64,000 nt of DNA from Chloroherpeton thalassium ATCC 35110 (GTDB taxonomy: Bacteria; Bacteroidota; Chlorobiia; Chlorobiales; Chloroherpetonaceae): assembly GCF_000020525.1 (NCBI RefSeq), contig NC_011026.1:2338001-2402000 (forward strand). The letters are read 5' to 3'. Numbering within the stretch: the stretch's first letter is position 1; each line of letters begins with the position of its first letter. Both the position numbers and the translations under genes were made by a program. Under the pieces are notes generated by a model. The model made no database searches, was not told where the DNA came from, and worked only from the letters and a program-made list of their open reading frames with translations. Below, piece after piece: positions 21,929 to 53,060 of the stretch.

Positions 21929-23576
21929 ATGAAACAGTTACACTTGTTGCTTTGGGTCGTCTTGTTCTTATTTGGTTTTAAGAACTTGAAGCGCAAGACA
22001 CAACGCTCATTCAAGCCACAAACACGCAAGGGCCAGCCAATTGTTATCCATTTGGCAGTGGCGCTGTTGGTGGAACATATCGGGGATTCATTTACAAAAA
22101 CATCCCTGCTTTTTCGCTTCAGCCAGGCGATAAAATTGCTTTTGACTTGGGAGCAGAAAATGATTATCCAATTTATATGGACATCGCGTTGGCGAAAACC
22201 AAAACCAATGGCGGCGATGAACCCGATGAAAATGGCTTTACCACCATTGTGACCAATGGTTCTCCAGCCGATCCGAATGGCGATGCGATCAAAAAGAACT
22301 ACGAATTGGAATTCACGGATGATAATGCGTTTACTTTTGATGGCGGCGGGCTCATCATTTGTTTTAAGTCTGCAGGCACGTATGCCAGCGACAATACCTG
22401 CACGCAGGTTTTGATGTATGGTTCGAGCTCCGATGTCAGCGGGTATTTTGTCGAACGATTCTATAGTGAAAGCGACGGGAATTATCCTTGGGGAACGACA
22501 AGCACAAGCCACATCGGCAATTTTAGATTGGTTACAGGCACAAGCAACAGCGGGAATGAAGATCAAGTGACGATTCCCGCCAGCGATACAAATTCGCATG
22601 ATTTTGCCAATGCCGGCGCACAAGTCCAATTTACTACGGGCAACACCAATGATTTGGTTATAAAGATCCAAAAAACCGATACAATACCGAGCATTGTGGT
22701 GCCGCTGCCCAGTTCTGTGGAAAATGTTTCTTCTCGCTATTGGACTGTGACTGTCCTTTTTGGCACAGTGGATGGCACTTACGACATCACATTAGCCTTG
22801 CCGACACAGCGAACTGCGGATCGATTTATGTCTTGAAGCGTGAGAACGATACGCAGCCGTGGCAAGATGTTGTTGCCGACCTTGGCGCAACACTCGATTA
22901 CAGCAAATGTCCTGATTCCATTGTTGTGAAAGGCCTGACTTCGTTCTCCGAATTCACGATTGGCCGCGAAGAGGACAATCCACTACCGGTTGAACTTTCA
23001 AGCTTCACCGGCGCGACGACCACAGCGGGCGTGGCGCTGAATTGGAAGACCGCGTCTGAAACCGACAACGCAGGTTTTGTGCTGTATCGCAACGGGGTAA
23101 AAATCGCGTCATACCAGGATGCGACCGCGCTAAAAGGCCAAGGCACGACGAGCAATGCCACGAGCTACAGCTTTGTGGATTCGGATGTGTATCTTGGCGA
23201 GAGCTACACGTATAAACTCACAAGTGTAGATAACTCAGGTGAGATTTACGAATATTCAGAAACGGTAAGCGTGGAAATAACGGAAACGGTGGAAAGCGAG
23301 ACGGAGACGAAGGCGACGGAATACGCGTTGGATCAGAACTATCCAAATCCGTTCAACCCGAGAACGACGATTCGCTTCAGCTTGAAGCAAGCGGGACGTG
23401 CAACGCTGAGAATCTTTGACATGCTTGGGCGAGAGATGTTCAGCAAGCAGATCACGGGCAGTGCCGGTTGGAATTCCTATCAGTTCAATGCCAGTGGCCT
23501 GAACAGCGGGGTATATTTCTACCAAATCAAGGCCAGTGGATATTCGGAGACGAAGAAAATGATGCTCTTGAAGTAA
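21929..23576 (+). pseudogene. T9SS-exported protein, broken by two frameshifts
   Basis: Three overlapping frames form one protein. Frame A (from ATG 21929) gives the signal peptide MKQLHLLLWVVLFLFG. Frame B (about 21990-22800) gives EAQDTTLIQATNTQG... LQPGDKIAFDLGAENDYPIYMDIA and a beta-rich body. Frame C (about 22800-23576) gives DTANCGSIYVLKREN..., NPLPVELSSF and the T9SS sorting domain NYPNPFNPRTTIRFSL... KMMLLK. Adding one base near 21990 and one near 22800 restores a single 549-residue frame (1648+2 nt). The intact paralogues at 34504 and 36988 carry the equivalent C-terminal half without these breaks. Either a decaying gene or sequence error; substrate binding unknown. Confidence 0.75.
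23034..23176. repeat. 143-bp block identical to 36043-36185
   Basis: Part of the shared T9SS-associated domain coding DNA (encodes ALNWKTASETDNAGFVLYRN and onward). Every base matches the copy in the gene at 34504-36582, including silent positions, while flanking bases differ. Confidence 0.9.
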
Positions 23577-23670
23577 GGCAGTGGTGTAACCAAAAAGCGC
23601 AAGGCAGGGAAAATCCCTGCCTTGATCATTTAGAGCCGAACCGATTATTTATAAAATGTTGCGATTTCGC
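23413..23670. repeat. 258-bp block identical to 39435-39692
   Basis: Covers the last 54 codons of the T9SS gene, its stop, the downstream 11-bp-stem hairpin (23600-23624) and the last codons of the convergent nitroreductase gene. The copy at 39.6 kb is identical base for base. This locus still has the complete nitroreductase, so it is the probable source. Confidence 0.92.
23600..23624. terminator. Intergenic hairpin, possibly bidirectional terminator
   Basis: CAAGGCAGGGA (23600-23610), AAA, TCCCTGCCTTG (23614-23624): a perfect 11-bp stem between convergent genes, without a T-run. The same hairpin is carried along at 39622-39646. Confidence 0.55.
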
Positions 23671-34503: not shown

Positions 34504-36582
34504 ATGAAAAAGCTACTACTCTCAGTTTTTGCGCTGTTTGTCTCATTAAACATGAGTGCGCAAACCAAAAGCGCTGGCGGAAATTCTGATGGCACCGGTG
34601 TTTCAGCAGGAAACGCACCTGTGCCACAGGTTAATATTGCCGTTACCACACCAGCCAAAGCCACATTGCCCTTCTCAGAAAGCTTTGAAAGCGGCAACTA
34701 CGACGACTGGGTCAACAATGGTGGCACCTACTCCGTGACGAACGCGGTTTCCCAAGATGGCTCATACAGCCTCACCTCCAGCACTCAGGGATCCTTTGTC
34801 GGTTTAACGCGGTACTTTGAGTCCGGCTCTCAGCCAACCTACGCAAGTGCCTACATTCGCTCTGGATCAACAACCGCAAGCAATGCTTATTTTACCATGA
34901 CAGGTGAAGCGCGTACAGGAGGCGAATCTGATGTGTTTTTCTTTTATGCTAAAGGCAATGGACCGCTAACCATGATCGGCGATGCGGCAAATCAGAATGT
35001 ATCCTACAACGCAGACCAATGGTACCACATTGAGGTCAAAAACATTGACTGGACAAACAAACAGTTTGATTATTATGTGGACGGCAATCTCATTCAAGCC
35101 GACATGGGCTTTAGAGGCAACACCATGAACGAGTGCTACGGGATTCATGTCTTTAACTACACTTCAGGCGTAACCGCTTACTGGGATAACATTTATGTCG
35201 GCGTAGGCGAATCAAGTGGTTCAACACCGGCCACGCCAGATACGCTCATCGCGACCGCTTCTAGCCAAAGCCAAATCGACCTTTCTTGGTCTGGCTCAAG
35301 CGATAAATTCCGGGTTCTCAAAAAAACAGGGTCTTCTTCGTCGGATGAAACTGACGGCGACGTGGTTTATGAAGGCACAAACACTTCTGCCAGCGCCACC
35401 GGTTTGGCCGCCAACTCTACGTACTTTTTCACCGTTTTTGGTATGAACACGGCAGGTGATGCGTTCTCCGATAGCAGCAAAAAAGCCGTTGCCTCTACCG
35501 ATCCTGAACCGGACAGCACCGGCACAAACGGCCAAGCAGGCTTCCTGGCCGGCGAGGCGGATTCCACCAACACCTTTGCTGGACTGGGCATCGAAATTAA
35601 ATTTACCGATCCATCCGACACCGATGGTTACTTAGATATTCGCAAAATCTTCAGTGCGCCGGCTGCTGGTAGCTTACCCGGCAGCGCGGAAGTTGCGGCA
35701 GGTGGCAGCATAGTGCCGGCCATCATGTATGAACTTCATTTCTGGAAAGTAACGAACAATGACTTATCGAGCTTTGTCTATGAAATTATCATCTCGCTGG
35801 ATGGGATTTCAGGCATTGGCGATCCAGAGCAGCTGTGCGTGTTTAAGCGCACCAATTCTGGTGACGCCTGGACAGATGCAGTCGCAAGCGGCGTCTCCAT
35901 CGTTTATGATTCCGACCGGAACGCGCTGATCATCAGCGGGCTGACCTCGTTCTCGGAATTTGCGATTGGTTCAGCCGGCGGCGACAATCCGCTACCGGTA
36001 GAGCTAACGAGCTTCAGCGGTACATCAACCACAGCGGGTGTCGCGCTGAATTGGAAGACCGCGTCTGAAACCGACAACGCAGGTTTTGTGCTGTATCGCA
36101 ACGGGGTAAAAATCGCGTCATACCAGGATGCGACCGCGCTAAAAGGCCAAGGCACGACGAGCAATGCCACGAGCTACAGCTTTGTAGATTCAGATGTGGA
36201 ACTGGGCGAAAGCTACACATATAAACTCACAAGTGTAGATAACTCAGGTGAGATTTACGAATATTCAGAAACGGTAAGCGTGGAAATAAGGGAAACGGTG
36301 GAAAGCGAGACGAAGGCGACGGAATACGCGCTGGATCAGAACTATCCAAATCCGTTCAACCCGAGCACGACGATTCGCTTCAGCTTGAAGGAAGCAGGAA
36401 AAGTGACGTTCCGAGTATTTGATATGTTAGGACGGGAAGTATATAGAGAAGTGAAGCAAGGGCAAGCCGGAGAGAACCCGCCGATAGTGTTTGAAGGGAC
36501 GAAGCTAAATAGCGGGGTATATTTCTATCAGATCAACGCCAACGGGTATTCAGAGACGAAGAAAATGATGCTCTTGAAGTAA
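34504..36582 (+). CDS. T9SS-exported surface protein with lectin-like and FnIII-like domains
   Basis: 692 residues. A Sec signal (MKKLLLSVFALFVSLNMSAQ) precedes a jelly-roll/LamG-like domain (about 55-240; FSESFESGNYDDWVNN, WYHIEVKNIDWTNKQFDYYVDGN). A fibronectin-III-like segment (about 245-335; LIATASSQSQIDLSWSGSS), a beta-rich region and the shared NPLPVELTSFSG module follow, ending in the type A sorting domain NYPNPFNPSTTIRFSLKEAG... KMMLLK. Probably attached to or released from the cell surface; carbohydrate binding is possible but not shown. Intact paralogue of the broken gene at 21.9 kb. Followed by a strong terminator. Confidence 0.88.
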   Translation: MKKLLLSVFALFVSLNMSAQTKSAGGNSDGTGVSAGNAPVPQVNIAVTTPAKATLPFSESFESGNYDDWVNNGGTYSVTNAVSQDGSYSLTSSTQGSFVGLTRYFESGSQPTYASAYIRSGSTTASNAYFTMTGEARTGGESDVFFFYAKGNGPLTMIGDAANQNVSYNADQWYHIEVKNIDWTNKQFDYYVDGNLIQADMGFRGNTMNECYGIHVFNYTSGVTAYWDNIYVGVGESSGSTPATPDTLIATASSQSQIDLSWSGSSDKFRVLKKTGSSSSDETDGDVVYEGTNTSASATGLAANSTYFFTVFGMNTAGDAFSDSSKKAVASTDPEPDSTGTNGQAGFLAGEADSTNTFAGLGIEIKFTDPSDTDGYLDIRKIFSAPAAGSLPGSAEVAAGGSIVPAIMYELHFWKVTNNDLSSFVYEIIISLDGISGIGDPEQLCVFKRTNSGDAWTDAVASGVSIVYDSDRNALIISGLTSFSEFAIGSAGGDNPLPVELTSFSGTSTTAGVALNWKTASETDNAGFVLYRNGVKIASYQDATALKGQGTTSNATSYSFVDSDVELGESYTYKLTSVDNSGEIYEYSETVSVEIRETVESETKATEYALDQNYPNPFNPSTTIRFSLKEAGKVTFRVFDMLGREVYREVKQGQAGENPPIVFEGTKLNSGVYFYQINANGYSETKKMMLLK
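36043..36185. repeat. 143-bp block identical to 23034-23176
   Basis: Same coding block as at 23 kb, with no mismatches although both flanks have diverged. Confidence 0.9.
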
Positions 36583-36637: not shown

Positions 36638-36987
36638 GTTCACCACGCCACGCAGTTATCAAAATTTGACAAGGTTCTTTTTTGTGATCGGTAGTGAAGA
36701 CGAAGACTGGCTTTTAGCGCCCTTCGTCTCCGCTCGGAACGACAGATTAAAAATGTTCAATTAATGACGGAATTTGATTCTATCATTATTCTCGAGTTTT
36801 ACTATAAAACACAAATCACTTGCACCTTTCTTATTTTTAGCTTAATTTTACTGATAGTGTTATTGCTATATGTTCTCGTTATCTCTAATAATGTACATTA
36901 TCCACCCGTATCTGTTTTTTATAAAAACGGAGTTCCATGTCTCATCACCCGGGATATCCTTTTTATTCAATCAAAAATCAATTCATC
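36638..36987. other. Intergenic region with a repeat fragment
   Basis: 350 bp before the RCC1 gene. CTTCGTCTCCGCTCGGAACG (36726-36745) is a variant of the intergenic motif at 43.66 and 58.08 kb. A 75-residue frame (36764-36991, hydrophobic LIFSLILLIVLLLYVLVI) lacks a good ribosome binding site and overlaps the next gene's start; it is not called. Confidence 0.5.
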
Positions 36988-39598
36988 ATGAAACAGAAGT
37001 TATTTTTTGTACTGTTTGCGCTGCTTTTTTGGGGAGTGGGCGCGCAACGCCTCGTGGGGCAAACGCTTGGCACCAACTTTGCCGGTTCCAACGCAATAAC
37101 CGCCGATAAAAACGGAAAGGTCTATACTTGGGGGAATGGCAGCTCAGGCCAACTGGGCAACAACTCTACGACCAATAGCACGGTGCCGGTAGATATCTCG
37201 AGTTATGGCGATCTTTCAGGCAAAACCATTGTGGCCGTCGCAGGGGGAAGCAGCTATAGCATCGCTTTGGACGATGCAGGAAAGGTCTATACTTGGGGGT
37301 ATAACTACAGCGGCCAACTGGGCAACAACTCTACGACCACTAGCTTGGTGCCGGTAGATATCTCGAGTTATGGCGATCTTTCAGGTAAAACCATCGTGGC
37401 CGTCTCTGCGGGAGCTCAGCACTGCATCGCTCTGGACGACGCTGGGGAAGGTCTATACTTGGGGGTATAACGACAACGGCCAACTGGGCAACAACTCTAC
37501 GACCAATAGCACGGTGCCGGTAGATGTGTCCAGTTATGGGGCCATTTCAGGCAAAAACATCGTGGCCATCGCAGGGGGAGGCAGCTATAGCATCGCTTTG
37601 GACGATGCGGGAAAGGTCTATACTTGGGGGAGTAGCGAGTATGGCGAACTGGGCAACGGAACATCGGGAACAGAAATGAACTACGAGACTGGGGACGATG
37701 AAACGGCGCATAGCACGGTGCCGGTAGATATCTCAAGTAAAGGGGCCATTTCAGGCAAAACCATTGTGACCATTGCTGCGGGGTACTATAACGGCATGGC
37801 AATAGACAATGCGGGAAAGGTCTATACTTGGGGGTCTAACGGCAGTGGCCAACTGGGCAACGGAGAATCGGGATACGATGAGTATGGGGACGCACTAATT
37901 AGCAATATTCCTGTAGATGTGTCCAGTTATGGGGCCATTTCAGGCAAAACCATCGTGGCCGGCGCTATGTCAAACGGCCACACCCTTGCTTTGGACGACG
38001 CGGGAAAGATCTATACTTGGGGGTCTAACAACTCTGGCCAACTGGGCAACAACTCTACGACCGCTAGCTCGGTGCCGGTAGATATCTCGAGTTATGGGGC
38101 CATTTCAGGCAAAACCATCGTGGCCGTTGCTCCCCTCGGACAGAGCAGCAGTATGGCGATGGACAGTGAAGGAACAGTCTATACTTGGGGGGCTGGCCAC
38201 ATTGGCCAACTGGGCAACAACTCTACGACCAATAGCACGGTGCCAATATTGGCATCCGGTTTATCGCTTGATGCGGGAGCAGCAGCGCCAGCCGATCCGA
38301 GCTCATTAACGGCGACGGCTAACGGGGAAACCCAAATCGACCTTGCCTGGACAGGCGATAGCCCGAAGTTCCGCGTTCTGATGAAATCCGACACCAGCTC
38401 AACCAGCGCCACCGACGGGACAATCATTTATGAAGGCACGGACAAATCGTATTCCAAAACCGGCTTAACCGCCGACCAAGCGTATTTCTTTGCCGTCTAT
38501 GGCATGAATGAAGCTGGCGACGCCTTTTCCGATAATGCGCAGAAAGCCGTTGCTTCAACAAAAATCGATGCTGACGGCGATGCCGAAGGCGGGTGGCTGG
38601 CCGGTGAAACGGGCGAATTTGACGCACAGAGCGACGCCGGGATCAAAATAGAATTCACCACCGGCAACAGCGGCGATGTCGTGCTAAACATCGTCAAAAA
38701 CGAATCCGACCCGGGCGAAGGCGCAGGCATTGACCCAGCCGGCGTCGAGCAACTCAAACCGCGCTACTGGACGGTGACCGCTACCGGCACCGCCGACGGC
38801 ACTTACACGATCACACTGGACTTTACAGGCGTTATCACAAGTTGCGACGGCCTGACCTTCTTGAAGCGTAGCGATGCAAGCGATACATGGAAAGACGTCA
38901 CGACGCTCGGCGGTTCGGTCAATACGGCTGCTTGTCCGGTCGTCGTCATCAGCGGGCTAACCGGATTTTCCGAATTCACGGTCGGCGGCCCTGCCGACGA
39001 GGCGCTGCCGGTTGAACTCTCAAGCTTCAGCGGCGCATCCACCAACGCGGGCATTGTATTGAACTGGAAAACCGCTTCTGAAAAAGACAACGCTGGTTTT
39101 GTCATTTCACGCAACGGCTCAGAAGTCGCTTCTTATCAAAACGCCGCCGCACTGAAAGGCGCCGGAACAACAAGCAGCGAAACGAGCTACAACTTCGTTG
39201 ATTCAGACGTGACTCTCGGCGAAACATACACTTACAAACTCGTCAGTGTTGATTTCAGCGGCGAGCGTCATGAATATTCACAAACCGTAAGCGTAGCCAT
39301 CACCGAAGTAGTGGAAAGCGAAACGGAGACGAAGGCGACGGAATACGCGCTGGAGCAGAACTATCCGAATCCGTTCAACCCAAGCACAATGATTCGCTTC
39401 AGCTTGAAGCAGGCGGGAACCGCAACGCTGAAAGTCTTTGACATGCTTGGGCGAGAGATGTTCAGCAAGCAGATCACGGGCAGTGCCGGTTGGAATTCCT
39501 ATCAGTTCAATGCCAGTGGCCTGAACAGCGGGGTATATTTCTACCAAATCAAGGCCAGTGGATATTCGGAGACGAAGAAAATGATGCTCTTGAAGTAA
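36988..39598 (+). pseudogene. T9SS-exported RCC1 seven-bladed propeller protein with one frameshift
   Basis: Start ATG 36988 (MKQKLFFVLFALLFWGVG... signal). Two RCC1 units are read in the first frame, then a G run in GCTGGGGAAGG (near 37441-37450) has one base too many and the frame ends at 37470. The body continues in the frame opened at 37370. Removing one G gives 869 residues with exactly seven units of the type AGKVYTWG... GQLGNNSTTNSTVPVDISSYG, then an FnIII-like domain (LTATANGETQIDLAWTGD), the NALPVELSSF-type module and the T9SS sorting domain. Seven units match a closed propeller, so the ancestral gene was intact. Sequencing error, phase variation or recent decay are all possible. Confidence 0.8.
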
Positions 39599-39692
39599 GG
39601 CAGTGGTGTAACCAAAAAGCGCAAGGCAGGGAAAATCCCTGCCTTGATCATTTAGAGCCGAACCGATTATTTATAAAATGTTGCGATTTCGC
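39435..39692. repeat. 258-bp block identical to 23413-23670
   Basis: Covers the end of the RCC1 gene, the hairpin (39622-39646) and the terminal codons of a nitroreductase gene that is otherwise absent here. The block stops abruptly at the nitroreductase codons, so this is the recipient site of a copying event. Confidence 0.92.
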
Positions 39693-49251: not shown

Positions 49252-49838
49252 CTAAGCTGCTAAATTGTATGAAATGGTTGAATCATCATTATTATTATCT
49301 TTGACAATAATTTTACGAATATTTCTCAATAATGCTAATTCCAATTCATTCATTTTGACTTTTCTCCAACTATGAGACGCTCTTATCAATACCCCGAAGA
49401 CTAACTTCATGGCGCTTTTTTCATTGACATGACTTGGAATAACCTTGGTTCGTCTTTTTTCTTCGGCAAATGAGCGTTCTATCAAATTCGTTGTTCTTAT
49501 AAACCGCCGATGTCCGCCTGGAAACTTTAAATGTGCCAGACAGGCATCCAAATCGTCCTGAAAGCAACGAACCATGTCAGGATATAGCTTTGCATAACGA
49601 TCAATAAACATCGCGGCCAATGTGTCGGCGGCAGTGCGATCGCTGGCGTAATACACACTGTGGATACAGGCTTTTACCTCTTTTTGAGCGTCTAAAGGTG
49701 TTTTATTCAGTAGGTTTCTTGTCTTATGTACCGTGCAACGCTGACGTCGGGCCAAAGGAAAACATTTGATAATCGCATTGATCACTGACGGTCAATGAAA
49801 TTGCTTTTCTGTTCAGATGGTTTTAATTTCGTTTTCAT
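49252..49838 (-). pseudogene. IS256-family transposase, internally deleted
   Basis: The first 15 codons (MKTKLKPSEQKSNFI, from 49838) are joined out of frame to the last 177 codons (VINAIIKCFPLARRQRCTVHKTRN... TTNLIERSFAEEKRRTKVI). The catalytic Glu region is kept, but both catalytic Asp regions (VDGV and TSDG) are lost with the deletion. Not functional alone. Confidence 0.85.
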
Positions 49839-49939
49839 GGCGTTGCTCTCCTTTAAAAGTTTGTTTTTTTATTGGCTAAAAAACATGCAACTTTTTGAGC
49901 AGCGCCTTACTTTTTTACACAAGTTTTATGACTTCATCT

Positions 49940-50441
49940 TCAACGTGAAAGGTTTGTTTGTAAAGACACGATAAATTTCTTAGTATCTTGAGGTGACAGC
50001 AGAATTTGCTCATTCTTTTTTAAAGAGATAAGTATTAATTTGTTATTCAAACTGCCACTATACATTTTTAAATTTCCTTTTTTCTCAGAAGAAAACGTTC
50101 CAAAATATCCAAATAATCCCCCTGAAGCAAACGTTCGCTCTAATGAACCCAAATCAGTAGGATTAACCTCAATGCAGTTTATTATTTCTTCTTTACACAC
50201 TTCAATCTTTCCAACTATCCGATTTATCGTAATACAGTTATTATCTACCACATAATTTCTTGGGGCATATATTAATGCCAGAAAAATCGGAATGTACATA
50301 GATAGGGTTATTGCTACCAGTAAAAAATTTATTTTTTTCTGATAAAATGTAAAACAAAATAGATAATGAAATAATTAATATTATAATGGTGACACTGATG
50401 ATAGTCACCGATTTGTCATAATAAATATCAAAATAAAACAT
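49940..50441 (-). pseudogene. Bacterial PH-domain membrane protein, frameshifted
   Basis: ATG 50441 starts MFYFDIYYDKSVTIISVTIIILIISLSILFYILSEK (one membrane helix). A run of seven A near 50333 shifts the frame. Dropping one A restores 166 residues with a second helix (INFLLVAITLSMYIPIFLALIY) and a bPH-type domain (GSLERTFASGGLFGYFG... GNLKMYSGSLNNKLILISL). 11 nt after the preceding gene's stop, so third member of the same AT-rich operon. Role unknown; such domains are common in membrane proteins of Bacteroidota. Confidence 0.65.
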
Positions 50442-50452
50442 GGCAAATATTT

Positions 50453-51424
50453 TTAAATTATACCTAAGTCTATCATTTTTTGAGTCACCGGCTTCCTAAG
50501 AAGTGTTTTCAATTGTTCAGTAGTTAATTTGTTATTAGATGATTTATAAATTTCTATATTCTCAACCATTTGAATAATTTCTTCTACATTTTTTTCAACC
50601 AGAGGATGCAAAACATATGAATCATCTTGATTTGTCTTGTGTCCCCAAATTCGGAGTATAGGGTTATTTGTAAATAATGAATTAGTCGACACATGGCAGC
50701 TACTGCCACAGGTACTTGATGAAGATGCAGTGGCTACATTCACCCACAATCCAACGTTAATAGCAGCACCTACATTAATGGCAGCTGCTAAATTATAAGC
50801 TACCGCGGCTTGAGAAACAACAGCAGCAATAACATAGACAAGGGTTACTGCTGCTGCAACAGCTTCCGGTTGATTTGATAATTTTAATTTGTTTGTTATA
50901 ATACCTTGAAGATTTTTATCACTACTTAATTGTTCAGTCAAGTAGTTAAGCATTTTTTTATCAATGCTAATTGAGTTGAAGTTTATATAGTGTTTAGTTT
51001 CCAATAATTCAATATACTTATTAATATTGTTGCTTTTTATTGCTTCCTGAACATCAATATCACCGAGAGCTAATGCCGATTTAACTTCTATTGAATTCAT
51101 ATCTAAATCAACATCTCCAAGCCCAATAGACCTCAAATATTGTTTAGGATTTTCATTAAATGCTTTGGCAATATCTGGGTTATTAAAAACATCATCTGAT
51201 AGTTTTGTTATGCAAATAATTTTTTTGGTTATTTCATTATTTAATTTGATTTTTTCTAATGCCGTAAAAGGAACAAAATCGTTTGTATCTAAATGCTTTT
51301 TTAAGTAATACTGACTGTCATTTTCTTGATTCTTATATGGATTATTAACATCCATATCGCAAGACGTGTCAATTATAATAATACCTGCAGTTGCCAATAA
51401 TTTAATCAAGGAGGATTTTGTCAT
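50453..51424 (-). CDS. Lipoprotein-like protein with leader-like segment and Ala/Val/Asn-rich tract (unknown)
   Basis: 323 residues, not recognised. Signal-like N-terminus (LIKLLATAGIIIIDTSC, Cys22) with an atypical lipobox. Residues 78-103 (DVFNNPDIAKAFNENPKQYLRSIGL) resemble the 'NP...F..P...L...GL' pattern of nitrile-hydratase-like or Nif11-like leader segments, followed by helical residues to 185. Residues 187-233 are almost only Ala, Val, Ile, Leu, Asn, Gly (YNLAAAINVGAAINVGLWVNV), then a Ser/Cys stretch with C239 and C243. The last 80 residues are helical and charged. ATG follows the stop of the radical SAM-like gene by 1 nt. AT-rich and Lys/Asn/Ile-rich unlike neighbours, suggesting transfer. 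A RiPP precursor or a surface toxin/adhesin are both possible. Confidence 0.75.
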   Translation of the reverse strand: MTKSSLIKLLATAGIIIIDTSCDMDVNNPYKNQENDSQYYLKKHLDTNDFVPFTALEKIKLNNEITKKIICITKLSDDVFNNPDIAKAFNENPKQYLRSIGLGDVDLDMNSIEVKSALALGDIDVQEAIKSNNINKYIELLETKHYINFNSISIDKKMLNYLTEQLSSDKNLQGIITNKLKLSNQPEAVAAAVTLVYVIAAVVSQAAVAYNLAAAINVGAAINVGLWVNVATASSSSTCGSSCHVSTNSLFTNNPILRIWGHKTNQDDSYVLHPLVEKNVEEIIQMVENIEIYKSSNNKLTTEQLKTLLRKPVTQKMIDLGII

Positions 51425-51425
51425 T

Positions 51426-51902
51426 TTATATGATTTTTAATTGTTTTTGAATTCTATACTTAAATAAAACTGATGGAATCATTTCAACATAATTGTTCTG
51501 TAAAGTTTTTCTTGCCAGTGGATTATTAAAAATAGTTGAGCAGATTTGACAATTGTGGTTTAAACTAATTGCATTCAGTCTGGGTTGTTTGGATCTCAAA
51601 AACTTAAATATTGCATATGGTCCTTCGATTTTCAACCATAAGTTTATAAAGTTCATATACTGTAATTCATATAAGAAACGAGCAGAATAACAATTCAAAT
51701 TACCAAGCTTTAATTCTTTAATTTTCTTTATCGTTAACCCACAGCACGCTGCCATTTGCCCATCAGGAAAAACTGAAAATATCTTGAATATTGAGTCGCA
51801 ACCTTTTTTTGATTCCTGAATGAGTTTTAAAGAATTTTTATCAAATTCTAATGACTTCGCACCTTTTTTAAAATCAGACCATAATCCGTTGATAATTTTT
51901 AA
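51426..51902 (-). pseudogene. Radical SAM/SPASM-like protein, C-terminal remnant
   Basis: The frame is open from the IS256 junction (51903) to the stop at 51426, 158 residues, with no N-terminal radical SAM CxxxCxxC part. The sequence IFSVFPDGQMAACCGLTIKKIKELKLGNL resembles the 'PDG...PCCG...LGN' turn of SPASM-type auxiliary cluster domains, and NHNCQICSTIFNNPLARKTL gives the later CxxC. Translation could start at the internal ATG 51755, but that form would lack half the motif. Truncated by the IS insertion. Assigned by motif recall only. Confidence 0.6.
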
Positions 51903-51903
51903 T

Positions 51904-52961
51904 TGAGCGTTCTATCAAATTCGTTGTTCTTATAAACCGCCGATGCCCGCTTGGAAACTCTAAATGTGCCAGACAGGCGTCCAAATCGTCCTGAAAGCAA
52001 CGAACCATTTCAGGATATAGATTCGCATAACGATCAATAAACATCGCGGCCAATGTGTCGGCGGCAGTGCGATCGCTGGCGTAATACACACTGTGGAGAC
52101 AGGCTTTTACCTCTTTTTGAGCATCTAAAGGCGTTTTATTCAACAGGTTTCTTGTCTTATGTACCGTGCAACGCTGACGTCGGGCCAAAGGAAAACATTT
52201 GATAATCGCATTAATCACCCCTTTTTGACCGTCCGATGTTACCATTAAGGGTTGCCTTAACCCACGCCCGAGCATTTCTTCAAAAAAATCACCCCATGAC
52301 GATTCGCTCTCCTGACTGGCTGCCGCTAAATGAAGCAATATCTTTTGCCCGTCGCTGCATATCGCCCAGGCCGCCAATATGGTTTGATTATTACTGTGTT
52401 TTCTTACCGATTCATATACGCCGTCCACTGTCAAATACACCACATCGTAACCCGACAGATCACGATTTCTAAAGCTTTCATACTCGGCATATAATGATTC
52501 GGTGATCTGACTGACGCTGCTCCGGCTTAATAACACCTTTCCATCACTATCGGTAAATGTGCTTTCTATATCGCGCGTAGTTATAATCCTCTGACATACA
52601 TCTCGGTAGATAGCCTGTATAAACCCGCTTCCAATTCCGATAGACGATTTAACAACTCACTGTTATATGGTTGTTGGGTGCCTCGTACTCTGGGGATTTT
52701 TAAATTCAAACGACCTTCCGCCGTTTTTGCCGTTCTGGGATAATAACCATTGCGGTAGCCTTCTCTTTGACCTTCTTTCTCCGATTTAGGTTCATAATGA
52801 GCTCTACCTAAAAAATCCGTAACCTCGCCTTCAAGTCCTTTTTGCATAAGATGCTCAACTCCGGCTATAAGCAATTCTTTCAGACTTACACCTGCATGGC
52901 CGCTGATAATTTCATTAATGAAATTGCTTTTCTGTTCAGATGGTTTTAATTTCGTTTTCAT
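51904..52961 (-). pseudogene. IS256-family transposase, frameshifted and 3'-truncated
   Basis: MKTKLKPSEQKSNFINEI... up to MYVRGL in one frame, then a single missing base near 52570, then RDIESTFTDSDGKVLLSRSSVSQITE... YLTVDGVYESVRK (first Asp), VTSDGQKGVINAI (second Asp), to TTNLIERS. Truncated right before the residues that hold the catalytic Glu in copy 1. Not functional. Confidence 0.88.
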
Positions 52962-53038
52962 GGCGTTGCTCTCCTTTAAAAGGTTGTTTTTTTTATTGGC
53001 TAAAAAACATACAACTTTTTGAGCAGCGCCTTACTTTT

Positions 53039-53060
53039 TTTACACATGATTTCGGACATC
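53039..53060. repeat. IS256-family terminal inverted repeat, right
   Basis: TTTACACATGATTTCGGACATC, the exact reverse complement of 49219-49240. Confidence 0.85.

Follow-up and report, generated by a model that had tools for sequence, protein, structure and literature searches.

Seven-bladed propellers of the RCC1 type are found in the eukaryotic proteins UVR8 and RCC1 and in the RLD of HERC2, and solved RCC1-type propellers are often protein binders. In bacteria, the Beta-lactamase inhibitor protein II is a secreted binding protein that is not known to carry a type IX secretion (T9SS) tail, and RCC1-repeat proteins of Legionella are reportedly type IV secretion effectors. In Flavobacterium psychrophilum, THC0290_2385 carries RCC1 repeats together with TIGR04183 and is described as extracellular in the wild type and absent in gldD and gldG mutants (PMC5682007). 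When a limited set of papers was searched for RCC1 with type IX secretion or T9SS, this report was the sole match.

Here, we describe an RCC1 gene of Chloroherpeton thalassium, which is described as an anaerobic anoxygenic phototroph and whose genome (CP001100) was reported from JGI in 2008 (PMC2613243). The gene lies in a window of 64,000 nucleotides, which spans 2338001-2402000 on the one contig of 3,293,456 bp, and coordinates are those of the window unless the contig is named. With the Legionella effectors it has bacterial RCC1 repeats in common, but it carries a T9SS tail and its host is a free-living anaerobic phototroph. It resembles THC0290_2385 in joining RCC1 repeats to a T9SS type A tail, a likeness in the described domains; THC0290_2385 is intact and was detected as a protein (PMC5682007), whereas the Chloroherpeton gene is broken.

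A T9SS cargo gene split by one base

The RCC1 gene (36988-39598) encodes, in order, a signal-like N-terminus, seven RCC1 repeats, an fn3 domain and a T9SS tail, and it is split in repeat 3 by a +1 frameshift that places its two parts, ORF A and ORF B, in different frames. ORF A (36988..37470, + strand, 160 aa) holds the signal-like N-terminus, the strand preceding the repeats, repeats 1 and 2 and the start of repeat 3, and then meets a stop past the shift. ORF B (37370..39598, +, 742 aa) holds the remainder of repeat 3, repeats 4 to 7, the fn3 domain, a linker and the T9SS tail, and is devoid of a signal-like N-terminus. When one base is skipped at the GGGG of 37444-37447, a read-through protein of exactly 869 residues is obtained, which confirms the initial annotation in its claim that a single base divides one protein. 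The probable signal peptide (36988..37059, +) was assigned by eye from the sequence and not by a program for cleavage sites, the fn3 domain (38294..38524, +) is a Pfam match, and the Por_Secre_tail/TIGR04183 T9SS type A sorting domain (39362..39586, +) comes from profile matches.

This sorting domain scores above both cut-offs (TIGR04183, 48.9 bits for a cut-off of 23; PF18962, 46.1 bits for a cut-off of 27), and the T9SS itself is represented in the genome by a SprA_N match of 235 bits; a PorP-type model was silent in the genome and in the controls alike and is uninformative. The earlier proposal of a surface protein is supported, in the form of a T9SS-type surface or secreted protein. As the gene stands, its signal-like N-terminus lies in ORF A and its tail in ORF B, so that in these different frames it is no working cargo gene; the read-through protein alone has both in one frame.

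On its 5' side the RCC1 gene is bordered by a T9SS cargo gene that is intact (34504-36582); the other flank carries genes with threonyl-tRNA synthetase, IF-3 and phenylalanyl-tRNA synthetase domains. A promoter scan gave 7 sites where shuffled sequences averaged 3.3 (sd 1.6), the one at 36863-36892 (+) being the sole one upstream of the RCC1 gene, and a terminator scan gave 5 against 4.0 expected from shuffles. Elsewhere in the window, 49252-53040 contains two fragmentary copies of a Mutator-family transposase, 96% identical over 300 bp, which flank a stretch of 30% GC with two ORFs without a Pfam match and a bPH_5 ORF. Outside the window, at contig 2046943-2048356, direct repeats overlap one another, reach 986 bp at 88% identity and apparently form a tandem array (L091).

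Seven repeats and a predicted propeller

Pfam detects seven PF00415 (RCC1) stretches in the read-through protein (253 bits), in addition to fn3 and Por_Secre_tail, and seven YTWG motifs are found in it, so the count of exactly seven repeats holds. On the + strand, repeats 1 (37114..37278) and 2 (37279..37443) have 165 bases each, repeat 3 (37444..37609) contains the frameshift and has 166 bases, repeat 4 (37610..37813) has a longer loop, repeats 5 (37814..38002) and 6 (38003..38170) follow, and the last part of repeat 7 (38171..38290) is missing. Since repeat 7 is incomplete and a strand (37090..37104, +, residues 35-39) precedes repeat 1, the N-terminus would close blade 7, as in other propellers. 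Values of dN/dS among the repeats range from 0.42 to 1.45 and are uninformative on the break.

AlphaFold was applied to residues 1-434 of the read-through protein, in which one proxy residue was used. From the single sequence the propeller reached a pLDDT of 39, and with an alignment a pLDDT of 86.3 and a pTM of 0.87. Besides the protein itself, the 11-row alignment contained nine loci of viral contigs and one genome locus (L008), hand-picked from about 79 loci; two of the picked loci were lengthened by 17 codons. UVR8 was the top match of the model in Foldseek and came first in VIA-align (6xzl, Z 57.5, rmsd 1.6, 362 aligned); HERC2, HERC1 and RCC1 came next, with Z 45.3 for human RCC1 (1a12). 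Beta-lactamase inhibitor protein II (1jtd_B) also has an RCC1-like propeller that aligns with the model (Z 28.4, rmsd 2.0, 257 aligned), and it is smaller, with 273 residues in the entry. The confident model and its Z score to UVR8 agree with the closed seven-bladed propeller that had been proposed, as a prediction for the read-through protein. The predicted fold would thus be that of UVR8, RCC1 and the HERC2 RLD, which are eukaryotic, unlike the Chloroherpeton protein.

UVR8 has a tryptophan cluster outside its WG motifs. In residues 1-434, all tryptophans are in YTWG motifs except W15, which is in the signal region, so this cluster is missing and a function as a UVR8-type UV-B receptor or in light sensing was rejected.

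Relatives of the RCC1 gene

All seven RCC1 matches of the genome fall in the 36988-39598 gene, with no second RCC1 gene in the genome, and none of the 60 relatives scanned (1 of the family and 59 of the order) gave an RCC1 match. In the phylum sample, RCC1 is present in 47 of 394 genomes, Chloroherpeton thalassium included. From the better matches, 18 RCC1 loci of the phylum were taken and 15 proteins scanned, leaving out two loci cut by the edge of their stretch and one that was not chosen. Por_Secre_tail was above the cut-off in 9 of these 15 proteins, and one shows the order RCC1, fn3, tail. Protein L196:3910-6660 (genome G378) has six RCC1 stretches, fn3 and a T9SS tail in the same order as the Chloroherpeton gene, from which it differs by an intact frame and an extra immunoglobulin-type domain. 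Given the nine tailed proteins and THC0290_2385, the RCC1 gene belongs to a kind already known and is a broken example of it.

RCC1-repeat proteins are also common in viral contigs, where at least 106 stretches, at least 78 of them distinct loci (L092, L115-L191), encode a relative, with a best identity of 39% among the matches listed. The best-scoring matches of the phylum sample are at 33-38% identity, with some shorter stretches reaching 48%, and one scan of genome contigs gave one relative at 29%. No donor of the propeller was singled out among the viral-contig, phylum-sample and genome-contig matches.

Broken genes among the T9SS cargo genes and the cause of the break

A PF18962 search of the genome returned 29 matches, 28 of them over the cut-off. 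The frames upstream of all 28 tails were inspected by eye, and this census counts genes that retain a tail. A signal-like N-terminus and the tail are in one frame in 24 of the 28 T9SS cargo genes, and four in this one genome are broken, the RCC1 gene included. The second broken gene (21929..23576, +) is in the window; its frame is broken twice and its 3' part is a mosaic. The other two are interrupted by stop codons: one (L081, contig 586650-588814) has a TAA as codon 30, just past the signal peptide, and one (L085, contig 2084108-2085784) has two TAG codons ahead of the tail.

In the RCC1 gene, the read-through frame is without a further stop in its 869 codons. With a chance of a stop per random substitution of 0.0285 in this frame, an unselected frame would stay open with a probability of 0.5 after about 24 substitutions (0.9% per site) and of 0.05 after about 104 substitutions (4% per site), so the absence of another stop limits the number of substitutions since the break. 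We consider that the RCC1 gene, which would encode a T9SS-secreted protein, probably lost its function by a recent mutation. Decay fits best in part because the genome has three further broken T9SS cargo genes, of which two are interrupted by stop codons.

The break rests on one assembly of one strain, and it may be asked whether an error of sequencing or assembly in 2008 disrupted a gene that is intact in the organism. The frame that is otherwise kept agrees with such an error, and would also fit a gene intact in other cells; moreover, the break site is within a short G run, in a gene that is repetitive and G-rich, with 22 G/C runs of at least 4. Against an error, two other broken cargo genes have stop codons and not indels. 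A second argument comes from a composition HMM run over 283,320 bases (the window and 20 stretches picked around cargo genes), which found seven frame switches, five of them at ordinary gene overlaps, as judged by eye, and the within-gene ones only in two T9SS cargo genes; this argument is weak since cargo genes fill about one quarter of the DNA scanned. The HMM missed the N-terminal break of 21929-23576 and every nonsense case, and it yields no clean rate, as the stretches scanned had been selected for their cargo genes. Altogether, an error seems to us rather unlikely, and we infer that the mutation is real.

Exchange of 3' parts between neighbouring cargo genes

The broken gene 21929-23576 lies 13.4 kb upstream of the RCC1 gene, and between them lies the intact cargo gene (34504..36582, +), which has fn3 and a T9SS tail and is a paralogue of the C-terminal part of the RCC1 gene. 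A stretch of 258 bp in the RCC1 gene (39435..39692, +), extending 94 bp beyond the stop codon, is identical to 23413-23670 of the broken gene. Positions 23027-23386 of the latter are 82-100% identical to the intact gene per 40-column block, and the longest exact stretch between these two genes is 143 bp. The broken gene is thus a mosaic, with a part like the intact neighbour followed by the 258 bp identical to the RCC1 gene. When the 3' regions of the cargo genes, taken from 900 bases ahead of the tail match to 250 beyond it, were compared in all 378 pairs, the longest exact match had a median of 12 bp, and the highest value apart from the two linked pairs was 45; a 253-bp query from the shared stretch matched in whole at these two places of the genome only. 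The identical stretches of 258 and 143 bp indicate that the clustered cargo genes recombine, and neighbouring T9SS cargo genes have exchanged 3' halves.

The same identities, which tie the broken gene to both the RCC1 gene and its intact neighbour and stand far above the 12-bp median, could be taken, with the sharp boundary of the mosaic, as signs that broken copies are silent donors from which gene conversion, acting as a system, reshuffles the T9SS surface proteins. Yet they are seen in three clustered genes only, no within-strain variants are known, the genome contains the propeller only once, and ordinary ectopic recombination accounts for them equally well. We give this explanation a slim chance. 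A broader form of it, in which T9SS genes would carry varied passenger domains, the propeller among them, on a common C-terminal chassis and broken members would be a silent store copied into expressed genes, is likewise a long shot; if true, it would mean that a free-living phototroph varies its surface by a system of gene conversion.

The G run at the break

The GGGG at the frame break (37444..37447, +) does not assign the inserted base uniquely. At this site, repeat 3 reads GCTGGGGAAGG and repeats 4 and 5 read GCGGGAAAGG. Computed over a core of 12-13 bases, repeat 3 is two steps from repeats 4 and 5 with any insertion (a T inserted and A changed to G) and three steps if the inserted base is forced to be one of the four Gs. 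For repeat 6, the distances are three with any insertion and four with an extra G, and for repeats 1, 2 and 7 the two distances are equal. Given the shorter distances to repeats 4, 5 and 6, the extra base may well be a T, the fourth G having arisen by substitution. The extra G of the initial annotation is therefore not supported, as an inserted T plus one substitution needs fewer steps from the closest sister repeats.

The same annotation had raised reversible phase switching by slippage in this G run, which would suit a gene for a surface-type protein with an offset of one base and a G run on site. However, the run is a G4, and phase-variable G tracts are described with a cut-off of 7 or more in Campylobacter (PMC6321876) and of 9 in Neisseria (PMC5953494). 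Runs of G or C in the window number 100 of length 4, 13 of 5 and one of 6, and 13, 8 and one of these lengths are in the RCC1 gene. This gene has nine G runs of at least 5 (eight G5 and one G6); the read-through keeps every one of them in frame, and seven fall in Trp-Gly codons of its repeats. With longer runs in the same gene kept in frame, and with an inserted T cheaper than an extra G relative to the closest repeats, phase switching does not hold up and is highly improbable.

A glycine tRNA could, in principle, re-pair at +1 on GGG-G, and the frame past the shift is kept, but programmed +1 frameshifting giving full protein from some ribosomes is the explanation to which we give least credence, as the shift site has no stop codon (the 0-frame stop at 37468-37470 is the eighth codon after GGG); the relatives scanned gave no orthologue for a comparison of the site.

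Discussion

If the gene was lost by recent mutation, as we favor, the intact protein would have been exported by its signal peptide and would have folded into a seven-bladed RCC1/UVR8-type propeller, its ring closed by the N-terminal strand of the propeller, and the C-terminal tail would have led it, by way of the T9SS, to the surface of the cell or to the outside. By analogy with solved propellers, the propeller at the surface would most likely have been a binding platform. With blade 3 shifted by +1, the product of the first frame would be a 160-residue stub that is exported but has no sorting tail, and that of the second would keep the tail and lack a signal peptide, so that the surface would receive no such protein. 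In this way we infer export, surface placement, the binding role and a null phenotype.

These results most likely reflect ordinary recent gene loss within a surface-protein gene family that swaps pieces. In its present state the RCC1 gene is an unremarkable case of inactivation within an established class of secreted propeller proteins, and the shuffled, broken cargo family nearby is more interesting than the RCC1 gene itself. The T9SS cargo list of Chloroherpeton needs careful reading, and the four broken genes of 28, together with the exchanged 3' halves, suggest a fast turnover of surface proteins.
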